A DNA stretch of 31,386 bases, taken from positions 1 to 31,386 of the forward strand of contig JAUUZA010000004.1 in NCBI GenBank assembly GCA_030590165.1. Direction: 5' to 3'. Positions 25,846 to 31,386 of the stretch are shown one piece after another. Within the stretch, counting starts at the first letter, position 1, and the number at the start of each line of letters is the position of its first letter. This stretch comes from Candidatus Altarchaeota archaeon. GTDB taxonomy: Archaea; SpSt-1190. The notes beneath the pieces were generated by a model. It worked only from the letters and a program-made list of their open reading frames with translations, was not told where the DNA came from and did no database searches. The position numbers and the translations under genes are program-made.

Positions 25846-26106
25846 CTAATATTGTTTACTCATATATTTCCCAATAATTTTAATGAGTTCAAAATTCTCT
25901 TCAGAAAAATCAACCACCTTCCCAAAAACAAGTTCGTGAAAAAGATATTGAGCATTATCATTGTGATAAAAACTTTTTTTAAACATATTTTTTACATAGT
26001 TTATGCGCTCATTAATATTTGAATATTCAGAAATATGACAGGAAATCCCTTTAATTTTTGCAAAATCATTAGCTAGAGTGACTAAATATTTGTCAAGCTT
26101 ATCCAC
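25846..26106 (-). CDS. Small hypothetical protein, paralogue of upstream gene
   Basis: This 86-residue protein is unrecognised but resembles its upstream neighbour (26127-26447). Both have an LDK start, an S-x-H/I-S-(E/D) stretch, (N)ERINYVKNMF against QERLDFVGRIY, and YLFHELVFGKVVD against DMYEIVLGRAID. It is predicted helical. The start is GTG at 26106 with a TTTTTAAG box about 23 nt upstream, overlapping the end of the neighbour. Probably a tandem gene duplication in a lineage-specific family. Confidence 0.55.
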   Translation of the reverse strand: MDKLDKYLVTLANDFAKIKGISCHISEYSNINERINYVKNMFKKSFYHNDNAQYLFHELVFGKVVDFSEENFELIKIIGKYMSKQY

Positions 26107-26126: not shown

Positions 26127-26447
26127 TTAAAAAGAATTTTTAACAATCAATTCTTTTGCTTTTTTCAGAAATTCAGTAAATTGATATTTATTAATAATAT
26201 TTAGGCAAGTTTCATAATTTTCAAACTGTGTTTCAGCAAGCTTAATTAATTCAGGTTCATCTATTGCGCGTCCAAGAACTATTTCATACATGTCAATTCT
26301 TTGATAAATATCATCCTTATTAAAATTTCGATATATACGCCCAACAAAATCTAATCTCTCTTGCTCATCCTCCCAGTCAGAAATGGGAGAAACCTCAAAT
26401 TTATGGGCATATTCTTCCATTTTTTGAACAATTACTTTATCAAGCAC
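26127..26447 (-). CDS. Small hypothetical protein, paralogue of downstream gene
   Basis: A 106-residue helical, acidic protein of unknown family, similar by eye to the gene at 25846-26106 over its first about 75 residues, with an added C-terminal helix (FTEFLKKAKELIVKNSF). The start is GTG at 26447; a TTTTAATTTTATAA box lies about 21-24 nt upstream. It abuts the hairpin-element region on its upstream side. No membrane or signal segment. Confidence 0.55.
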   Translation of the reverse strand: MLDKVIVQKMEEYAHKFEVSPISDWEDEQERLDFVGRIYRNFNKDDIYQRIDMYEIVLGRAIDEPELIKLAETQFENYETCLNIINKYQFTEFLKKAKELIVKNSF

Positions 26448-26493
26448 TCCAAATTAAAAATTATAAAATTAAAAGGGTGTTCCTTTTTCTTTA

Positions 26494-26545
26494 CTCAAGC
26501 TTTTTGAGCGAATCCCGCCTCAGCGGGAGTAGCGAGAAAAGCTTG
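26494..26545. repeat. Hairpin element A (CAAGCTTTT...AAAAGCTTG)
   Basis: Arms CAAGCTTTT (26496-26504) and AAAAGCTTG (26537-26545) pair perfectly. A nested stem TCCCGC/GCGGGA (26513-26518, 26523-26528) with loop CTCA lies inside. The left flank TTTACT is the same as in element C. It does not adjoin a tRNA. Confidence 0.85.
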
Positions 26546-26580
26546 TCTTGCATAAGAGGGATTTGCAGAAGGAAATTTTG

Positions 26581-26644
26581 CTCAAGCTTTTCGAGCGAGA
26601 GGACAAGCGACTGAAAGGAGCGAGTCCGAAGCGAAAAAAGCTTG
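26581..26644. repeat. Hairpin element B abutting tRNA-Leu 3' end
   Basis: Arms CAAGCTTTT (26583-26591) and AAAAGCTTG (26636-26644) flank a 44-nt interior with four AGCGA motifs at 26594, 26606, 26619 and 26630, and several alternative short pairings such as GGAC/GTCC. The last two bases of the arm are the discriminator position and the first acceptor base of tRNA-Leu. Confidence 0.85.
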
Positions 26645-26727
26645 CGGGGGATGAGATTTGAACTCACGAACCAACTTTGGACAGGAACCTCAATCCTGCG
26701 CATTTGACCATACTCTGCCACCCCCGC
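26643..26727 (-). tRNA. tRNA-Leu (GAG)
   Basis: On the minus strand: acceptor GCGGGGG with CCCCCGC, D arm with GG, anticodon stem CAGGA/TCCTG and loop TTGAGGT (anticodon GAG), a long class II variable arm with CCAA/TTGG stem, and T arm GTGAG-TTCAAAT-CTCAT. Discriminator A; CCA is not encoded. Its 3' end runs directly into hairpin element B. It lies downstream of tRNA-Phe. Confidence 0.94.
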
Positions 26728-26744
26728 ATCTCAATCGTACTTTA

Positions 26745-26792
26745 CTCAAGCTTTTCGAACGGAGCCCGAAGGGCGTAGTTGAGAAAAGCTTG
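26745..26792. repeat. Hairpin element C abutting tRNA-Phe 3' end
   Basis: Arms CAAGCTTTT (26747-26755) and AAAAGCTTG (26784-26792) enclose a stable GCCC-GAA-GGGC hairpin (26764-26774). The right arm overlaps the 3' end of tRNA-Phe by two bases, exactly as element B does with tRNA-Leu. Confidence 0.85.
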
Positions 26793-26864
26793 GGGCCAGC
26801 GAGATTTGAACTCGCGACAACTCGGTCTTCAGCCGAGCGCTCTCCCAAGCTGAGCTATGGCCCC
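26791..26864 (-). tRNA. tRNA-Phe (GAA)
   Basis: On the minus strand: acceptor GGGGCCA with TGGCCCC, D arm GCTC/GAGC, anticodon stem CTCGG/CCGAG with loop CTGAAGA (anticodon GAA), T arm GCGAG-TTCAAAT-CTCGC. Discriminator A; no CCA encoded. An ATATTATAAATATT box near 26885-26900, inside the end of the upstream gene, is about 26 nt from the 5' end. Confidence 0.95.
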
Positions 26865-26879
26865 AGTAAGAAACAATCA

Positions 26880-29257: not shown

Positions 29258-30322
29258 TTACCCGAAGAAACAATCTGGGTCTCCAGGGTCTTCAGGTGGA
29301 CAATATCCATCCTCAACAATCCATTCCCCATCATAAGCATTCCCTTGAACATCTTGAAGATTCTCACAAAAAACTGGAATTTCCGTATCATCAAGAGCCC
29401 GAACAAATAAATAAACTTCATCAATAGCCCCATGGAAATAATCCCCAGAACTATTTCCAATAAACAAATCACCCATACTCGGTGAATAAGAGGAATCAAC
29501 CGAACTTAATAGTGAACAATTTCTATAAACTTTCAAAGAAGTCCCATCATATTTCATAACAAAGTGAGTCCATACATCATTAGTAAGTGATTCACTAATT
29601 GACTCTCCACCATCAAGACTAAATGAAACAGTTCCATCAGATTGACTCGCGACATGGAAGGAATCGCCATCAATAATTCCTTCACTATTATTAACATTAG
29701 TTTCTCTTAAAGTCCAAAAAGCAAGAGTAAATTGTTCAGAATTAAAACCTGTATTTGCATTAACTTTAGCATATCCCCACCCACCATTAAACCTAAGTGC
29801 ATAATCAGAAGTCCCATTTATCCAAGTGGCATTTGTAACAGCATCATTCCCATTCAAACTCACATCACTTGAAGTAGTTCCACTACCTTCCCTAAATGGT
29901 AAATACATTAAAAGTCCGTAATCTTGACGCGCTCTGCACTTTTCAATTATAGTCCAATATTTAGATTTAATTGTTACAGTATAATCACTATTCTCAACCA
30001 TTGAAGCATTAAAATAAATATTTCCTGTTTTATCAATTTCAATTTTAGTAAAACCAGATCCAATTTTATCCAATCCGTCTTTTACTTCATAATAAAGAGA
30101 CCCAGACAAAAGTTCATTAGAACTAAGAGTCATATATCCATAATTTTCAAAACATACAGTTGCCAAGTGTTTTGGAGACATTCTATTAGAAACCATCAGT
30201 TCCCCTGTTTTTGATTCTGACTCTGTTGCAAATCTATTGACAAATAAATATGATGAAGAAACCATCACAATAGTAATTAAAATCATTGCTGCAGAAACTA
30301 TTGAAGCTGAAACTCCTTTCAC
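29258..30322 (-). CDS. Pilin-like signal plus LamG-type surface protein
   Basis: This 354-residue protein starts MKGVSASIVSAAMILITIVMVSSSYLF split as K-G and a hydrophobic helix, like archaeal class III (type IV pilin) signal peptides. An N-terminal domain with two Cys (ATVCFENYGYMTL, KYWTIIEKCR) is followed by a LamG/concanavalin-like domain (LMYLPFREGSGTTSSD, FTLAFWTLRE, DVWTHFVMKYDGTSLKVYRN, GAIDEVYLFVRALDDTEI) and a Cys/Pro-rich tail. LamG domains commonly bind sugars. The GTG start has a CATAAAAG box about 24 nt upstream, overlapping the stop of its paralogue. Probable adhesin on pili or the envelope. Confidence 0.75.
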   Translation of the reverse strand: MKGVSASIVSAAMILITIVMVSSSYLFVNRFATESESKTGELMVSNRMSPKHLATVCFENYGYMTLSSNELLSGSLYYEVKDGLDKIGSGFTKIEIDKTGNIYFNASMVENSDYTVTIKSKYWTIIEKCRARQDYGLLMYLPFREGSGTTSSDVSLNGNDAVTNATWINGTSDYALRFNGGWGYAKVNANTGFNSEQFTLAFWTLRETNVNNSEGIIDGDSFHVASQSDGTVSFSLDGGESISESLTNDVWTHFVMKYDGTSLKVYRNCSLLSSVDSSYSPSMGDLFIGNSSGDYFHGAIDEVYLFVRALDDTEIPVFCENLQDVQGNAYDGEWIVEDGYCPPEDPGDPDCFFG

Positions 30323-30345: not shown

Positions 30346-31386
30346 TTATGAGTTTTGGTATGATTGATAAAGAGTACTGATTTCGTCCGAATCAAGAGCC
30401 CGAGTATAAATTCTTACCTCGTCAATAGTCCCATTAAAATTCCCTGAAGCAGACAAGCCACCAATATCTGCGGAAGTAAATGGCTCAAGTGTACCCTTAA
30501 ATGTATCACTTTGAGCATAAAGTGACCCATCAAGATAAACATTCATTGTTGTTGAATTCAAAACCCCAGTATAATAATACCAAACATCTTTTTGAAAGGG
30601 ATAATTTACATTGAAAGTAAATCCATGCCCAGTCGTATTAAATGGTTTAAAAATTGGACCACTAGCATCATAAAATCCTGTTTCCAAAGAGCTGGCAGCT
30701 CCATATAACCTTACAAAATAATGCCACCAAGAAACATTTTCTTGATTAGTATCAATGAATGGTTTTACCCAAAAAGCCACAGTAAAATCAGAAAGAGAAC
30801 TAACTGACATATCATCCACCCTTACTCTTCTATAATTACCATTATATGTAAAATTCAAGGCATTTCCAACCTTTCCAGAAACAAAACCTGCAGAATAAAT
30901 TATTCCATTAGTTTTACTATTACTCCTATCATAAGTCGTTGTTCCTGAACTCTCATCAAAAGGTAAATATAAAATCATATGTGGGTCATTGAATGGCCTA
31001 CAATATTCACTTATTCTCCAATTCTTTGCCGAGAGAGTTACAAGATATCGTTCACTCGGGTCAAATAAAAATGGAAAATAAACTCTTCCAGAATTGGTAA
31101 AAGACACATTCACAAATCCTTCTGACATCATTTCACCTGTGTCTTTTTCAACAGAATAATATGCCTGACTATTTACCCTTTCCTGACCTTGACTTAAACT
31201 AAGTCCCATATATCCATACCCATCATAACAAATTAGAGTTAAAAATTTTGGAGCAATATCCAATTCAATCATTTGTTCTTCACCCTTTGAAACAAGAGTA
31301 GTTTCAGTTCGTTTCAAATAAGTAAATAAAACACCAGCTGACGACACAGTTATTAAAACTAAAACAATAATTGTAATTGCAGCCGT
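30346..31386 (-). CDS. Pilin-like plus LamG surface protein, N-terminus beyond window
   Basis: A paralogue of the downstream gene. The frame stays open to the window edge: the residues before 31347 read TAAITIIVLVLITV, a pilin-type hydrophobic helix, so only a few N-terminal residues are missing. The Cys-bearing domain (LTLICYDGYGYMGL, KNWRISEYCR) and LamG domain (MILYLPFDESSGTTTYD, FTVAFWVKPF, KDVWYYYTGVLNSTTMNVYLDGSLYA, NGTIDEVRIYTRALDSDEI) align in order with the neighbour. It lacks the neighbour's Cys/Pro tail. Likely a surface adhesin. Confidence 0.78.
   Translation of the reverse strand, partial: TAAITIIVLVLITVSSAGVLFTYLKRTETTLVSKGEEQMIELDIAPKFLTLICYDGYGYMGLSLSQGQERVNSQAYYSVEKDTGEMMSEGFVNVSFTNSGRVYFPFLFDPSERYLVTLSAKNWRISEYCRPFNDPHMILYLPFDESSGTTTYDRSNSKTNGIIYSAGFVSGKVGNALNFTYNGNYRRVRVDDMSVSSLSDFTVAFWVKPFIDTNQENVSWWHYFVRLYGAASSLETGFYDASGPIFKPFNTTGHGFTFNVNYPFQKDVWYYYTGVLNSTTMNVYLDGSLYAQSDTFKGTLEPFTSADIGGLSASGNFNGTIDEVRIYTRALDSDEISTLYQSYQNS

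Follow-up and report, generated by a model that had tools for sequence, protein, structure and literature searches.

A probable REP/MITE-like mobile palindrome with archaeal tRNA genes as its hot spot

Why should a long hairpin begin exactly where a tRNA gene ends? The question is raised by a window of 31386 bases (33% G+C), the window being the whole stretch of DNA that was analysed, on a contig of a 724-kb draft archaeal genome. A first-pass annotation of this DNA had described three hairpins there and had offered three guesses as to their nature: a non-autonomous palindromic mobile element that targets tRNA 3' ends, a small RNA linked to tRNAs, or a processing or termination signal. The first of these guesses, the mobile element, is the best supported; the evidence for it consists of many copies, identical ones at unrelated loci, duplicated flanks and flushness with tRNA ends across the family. 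In our judgement, the element is probably a REP/MITE-like non-autonomous mobile palindrome for which tRNA genes are a hot spot.

The three hairpins and their relatives in one genome

In a correction to the first description, the elements are placed on the minus strand, where they read away from the tRNAs. On that strand, tRNA-Phe(gaa) (26790..26865; ARAGORN and Rfam RF00005) is followed by hairpin C (26747..26792; CAAGCTTTTCTC...GAAAAGCTTG), whose own CA is the last CA of the tRNA, and by its 3' tail AGTAAAG (26740..26746). Then come tRNA-Leu(gag) (26642..26728; ARAGORN and Rfam) and hairpin B (26583..26644), which has a long interior. A 37-nt stretch, made up of the 7-nt tail of B (AGCAAAA, 26576..26582) and a spacer (26546..26575), leads to hairpin A (26496..26545) and its tail AGTAAAG (26489..26495). 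The overlap with the 3' ends of tRNA-Phe(gaa) and tRNA-Leu(gag), by elements C and B respectively, is borne out by ARAGORN and Rfam and amounts to 2-3 nt. A left flank TTT(A/G)CT, also pointed out earlier, is present but is actually the reverse complement of the conserved 3' tail AG(T/C)AAA.

All three hairpins have the arms CAAGCTTTT/AAAAGCTTG, with fold energies of -19.5 to -27.9 kcal/mol. They are real and far from chance: a fixed-arm pattern allowing a gap of up to 40 nt matched two of the three elements in the window, the third being missed for its longer interior, and nothing in 100 shuffles. An Rfam scan of the window and related loci gave gathering-score matches to tRNA and rRNA only, and the element corresponds to no known Rfam family. 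Two pairs of adjacent genes lie on the minus strand of the window. The small open reading frames at 25846-26106 and 26127-26447 encode proteins that resemble paralogues of one another; the proteins encoded at 29258-30322 and 30346-31347 are similar in layout and probably paralogous, with an N-terminal hydrophobic segment and common motifs such as SGTT and IDEVY/IDEVR.

Element A, which had been taken to stand alone, really belongs, as its second unit, to an [element-spacer]-element array after tRNA-Leu(gag), and the arrangement recurs at the paralogous tRNA-Leu(cag) locus (contig C35), where three elements stand in a row. The window's B-A spacer with its tail is identical to the first spacer of the tRNA-Leu(cag) array at 29 of 33 positions. 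The spacer was also considered as a decayed tRNA-Leu end, and this was rejected; its match to the tRNA end is no better than that of shuffles, 57 to 191 of 500 of which score as high.

No further copy occurs within the window, as had been claimed, and several more tRNAs elsewhere in the genome carry the element. A fixed-arm genome search (AAGCTTTT...AAAAGCTT) returned the window copies only, because the arms vary; relaxed searches then found the family. Identical 9-bp arms are not its hallmark. In the window's genome, the hairpin after tRNA-Arg(tct) has the arms CAAACTTTTC/GAAAAGTTTG, that after tRNA-Glu(ttc) CAACCTTTTTC/GAAAAAGGTTG and that after tRNA-Val(cac) GAAACTTTTC/GAAAAGTTTC, and more such hairpins occur at other tRNAs. 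An ANNAAA tail stands behind every tRNA 3'-flank hairpin inspected in this genome. Interiors are shared between different tRNAs: that of element B, at tRNA-Leu(gag), recurs at tRNA-Arg(tct), and that at tRNA-Val(cac) recurs at tRNA-Arg(tcg) and tRNA-Gly(ccc). One interior module, CTCGAAAANNTT, has 11 exact matches genome-wide; six belong to elements, each of them in a tRNA 3' array, and the other five lack a hairpin.

Read on the tRNA strand, the unit has the form CAAn-stem-loop-stem-nTTG, followed by an unpaired tail that is AG(T/C)AAA in the window and ANNAAA in the family, usually A(T/C)CAAAA (AYCAAAA). Six other genomes from the window's family show a minimal form of 21 nt, CAAACTTTT-NNN-AAAAGTTTG, and then AYCAAAA. 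The 5' flank of the element shows no conservation outside tRNAs. The stem letters change with compensation. A total of 46 cells were changed on both sides as against 10 in shuffles, and the outermost pair and pair 4 changed on both sides in 9 and 14, respectively, of 35 sequences that had been selected as hairpins, a choice that favours pairing. In addition, the identity of the tail base Y in AAAAG[X]TTGA[Y]CAAA goes closely with that of the stem base X, in archaea and bacteria alike: C-C occurs about 55 times and C-T 5, T-T 94 times and T-C 11, and G-T 23 times and G-C 4, in counts that leave kin sequences unweighted and in part pool different 5' arms.

Association with tRNA genes and wider distribution

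Seven genomes of the window's family have 160 tRNAs between them, and 40 of these carry a unit whose start lies between -3 and +3 nt of the tRNA 3' end; the same rule picks out 8 of 760 shifted positions and 5 of 3120 shuffled flanks. The rule applied here (at least 8 of 10 pairs plus the tail) was framed after examples had been seen, and a genome-wide pattern search that makes no reference to tRNAs is therefore the fairer test. Of the 39 copies that it gave, 14 have their CAA side at a tRNA 3' end; each of these is no more than 3 nt away from it, and the range from +4 to +12 is empty. Three further copies, on the opposite strand, are found at tRNA 5' ends, a tRNA intron holds one more, and about five others, by inspection, belong to tRNA arrays or fragments. 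About a third are away from tRNAs; in our reading, some of these directly precede a start codon, their CAA side facing the gene.

Beyond this family, 48 of 297 archaeal genomes contain matches, with up to 31 copies in one genome, whereas a reversed control gave almost none and never more than one per genome. A scan of named genomes returned at least 119 stretches; among the matches listed, about 70 are archaeal and 41 bacterial, the latter mostly from Clostridia and including some gut bacteria. The archaeal hosts include methanogens, Thermococcus, Altiarchaeota, Woesearchaeota, Diapherotrites and others, and at least 15 of the archaeal stretches among the matches listed are, by inspection, in or at tRNA genes. 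The bacterial copies among the matches listed are intergenic or in reading frames, and none was seen at a tRNA. At four Ruminococcus loci (L194, L208, L249 and L250) the element lies within a longer repeat, and GC-rich hairpins such as CAGGGGCGTTGCCCCTG stand just before its CAA side. A search of 2.9 million viral contigs gave eight matches and no mobiliser. A literature search, conducted largely without subscription papers, found neither the motif nor the family described and gave one unrelated match.

These distributions bear on whether the hairpin is a functional tRNA trailer, that is, a terminator or 3'-processing signal under selection. Some isoacceptors carry the element in several genera, and the compensatory stem changes agree with such a role; the stem conservation at tRNAs, a point against the mobile reading, could reflect a selected function. 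The first T-run also lies closer to the gene in tRNAs with the element (median 5 nt) than in those without (24.5 nt), a closeness that is trivial in that the T-run is part of the element. At tRNA 3' ends this T-run is the CTTTT of the 5' arm, and, to judge from the sequence, it could end transcription there; a terminator or processing role of the element at tRNAs is possible. On the other side, three quarters of the tRNAs have no element, the set of carriers differs between genera, and the compensation was measured on sequences picked as hairpins. Introns, tRNA 5' ends and the regions upstream of protein genes hold the unit too, as do tandem arrays and bacterial genomes. A scatter of copies unrelated to tRNAs, named at the outset as evidence against a tRNA-linked family, is not found in the window's archaeal family but is found in Clostridia and partly in methanogens, most copies there lying between genes; in its general nature, the element is therefore not a signal for processing or termination that is specific to tRNAs. 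We consider the trailer explanation unlikely. A general terminator function was rejected, as copies elsewhere have no fixed orientation relative to genes.

Copies inside tRNA genes

Several copies interrupt tRNA genes. In the tRNA-Thr(cgt) gene of genome G001 (L107:11981-12093), a 41-nt insertion at position 37/38 consists mostly of the element: the element with its tail, CAAGCTTTTTGGAAAAAAGCTTGACCAAAA, is followed by AGCTACGAGAA, in which TACGAGA complements the anticodon loop. Without the insertion the gene gives a 72-nt cloverleaf close to the intron-free orthologues of G005 and G000, as is expected of a predicted archaeal tRNA intron, an insertion at 37/38 whose removal leaves a normal tRNA. 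Intron gain in G001 is the simplest reading of this comparison, the alternative being loss in G000 and G005. A cmscan search found tRNAs with the element inside at L107, L213, L229 and L251, and, with the position read from the anticodon, the element starts directly after position 37 in tRNA-Asp (L207), tRNA-His (L252) and tRNA-Thr (L213 and L107). In two Woesearchaeota loci (L236:2492-2544 and L193:4592-4640) the element stands one base after the GTTCAAA of an apparent tRNA T-loop, as if it were a T-loop intron. To our knowledge, no tRNA intron built from a dispersed palindromic repeat has been described. The origin of archaeal tRNA introns, and their abundance in some lineages, call for an explanation, and a palindrome that makes up nearly a whole tRNA intron in one species and is absent from the orthologues would make intron gain directly testable.

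An introner-like version of mobility would have the hairpin land at tRNA processing sites (the 3' end, 37/38 and the T-loop) and create introns and trailers, perhaps via RNA ends left by RNase Z or the splicing endonuclease, with a DNA copy made afterwards. We regard this route as distinctly unlikely.

Flank duplications and the candidate mobiliser

Duplicated host DNA accompanies many copies. In 19 of 149 loci, the 14 nt that precede the CAA side are found again, with up to two mismatches, no more than 170 nt beyond the tail; the number expected from other windows of the same loci is 0.5. The duplicated DNA measures 24 to about 150 bp, and the copies often lie at the duplication junction. Examples are a 39-bp duplication in an Altiarchaeota tRNA (L225), one of 37 bp at L204, and a five-element array of 54-bp units in Methanosarcina (L222). 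Where the site lies inside a tRNA, the second duplicate restores the gene. Most copies at tRNA 3' ends showed no flank duplication. Zero-spacer tandem units occur at three loci (L069, L107 and L123), and an identical 40-nt string, the element minus its first four bases, is present at tRNA-Ala(cgc) and on another contig of the same genome (G006).

Y1 (HUH) transposases (PF01797) were found in none of ten genomes of the phylum (G000-G009), while the control search found them in 5 of 14 known genomes. The 116 neighbouring proteins contain no recurring mobile-element family and are products of ordinary genes, no Y1 transposase being among the 25 families listed for them. A parent transposon with the same ends was likewise absent from the neighbourhoods scanned. 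With no Y1 transposase in the ten genomes and ordinary neighbours, a non-autonomous repeat inserted by a host or foreign activity that duplicates flank is therefore proposed. The short palindrome, the conserved one-sided unpaired tag, the intergenic bias and the tandem copies do recall a REP moved by a RAYT, or a PATE-like remnant of IS200/IS605 (PMC3733652; PMC3119063). Against this stand the lack of a Y1 transposase in those genomes and a tag that is neither GTAG nor CGTC but ANNAAA, mostly AYCAAAA. IS605-type elements and PATEs also leave no target duplication (PMC3119063), whereas flanks are duplicated here, and there is little probability that the element arose in this way.

The position of copies at junctions of tandem duplications of variable length would also suit palindromes that are not mobile but born locally, by replication slippage or by repair with tandem duplication. 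Local birth would not, however, yield the same CAA...TTGAYCAAAA frame in many phyla or identical copies at unrelated places, and is very improbable. That the copies are remnants of the att sites of tRNA-specific integrases is highly improbable: integration into tRNAs classically occurs at the anticodon loop, the T-loop or the 3' end, and some loci hold duplicated tRNA fragments, but the duplications take in unique upstream DNA and occur at non-tRNA sites too, and the conserved part is the palindrome beside the repeat and not the repeat itself.

In the preferred reading of a mobile, non-autonomous palindrome, a host or foreign activity would insert the unit and duplicate a stretch of flank. tRNA genes would be hot spots in part because they tolerate the insertion, as 3' processing or splicing can remove the damage and duplication can undo it; at tRNA 3' ends, the early T-run of the 5' arm may, more tentatively, act as a terminator. 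Such tolerance, with trailers and introns removed and genes restored by duplication, accounts for survival in tRNA genes but not for exact flushness, which suggests a targeting step. A repeat common to archaea and Clostridia, exact at tRNA ends, with duplicated flanks and no known transposase, points to an undescribed insertion activity.

Comparison with known palindromic elements

The REPs of the GTAG and CGTC super-families are tagged short palindromes (PMC3733652). The element resembles them as a short palindrome with a one-sided unpaired tag, dispersed and mostly non-coding but sometimes inside genes, and its size (21 bp plus the tail in the minimal form) agrees with the 20-40 bp of a dispersed REP palindrome. 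It differs in its ANNAAA (AYCAAAA) tag, lower copy number and lack of a RAYT, and in its archaeal tRNA hot spot and duplicated flanks. PATEs, the terminal-only IS605 remnants of Haloquadratum, are IS605-derived and without target duplication (PMC3119063); they too are archaeal, palindromic and too short to code, and can shrink to about 50 bp, whereas the present element has flank duplications and no Y1 gene. Intrastrand triplex motifs (PMC4666352) were set aside, as in our reading these need purine/pyrimidine tracts.

MITEs and the Rickettsia palindromic elements have been reviewed together (PMC10969869). Like these, the element is non-coding, multicopy and palindromic, with some copies inside genes, and the terminal inverted repeats of a MITE are present in the form of the palindrome, though the tail makes it asymmetric. 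MITEs have a parent transposon and fixed short target duplications. The duplications here, in contrast, range over the lengths given above and have no fixed short size. Finally, disrupted tRNA genes with bulge-helix-bulge introns have been reviewed (PMC4033280), and the likeness to archaeal tRNA introns is that some copies of the element make up most of a 37/38 intron.
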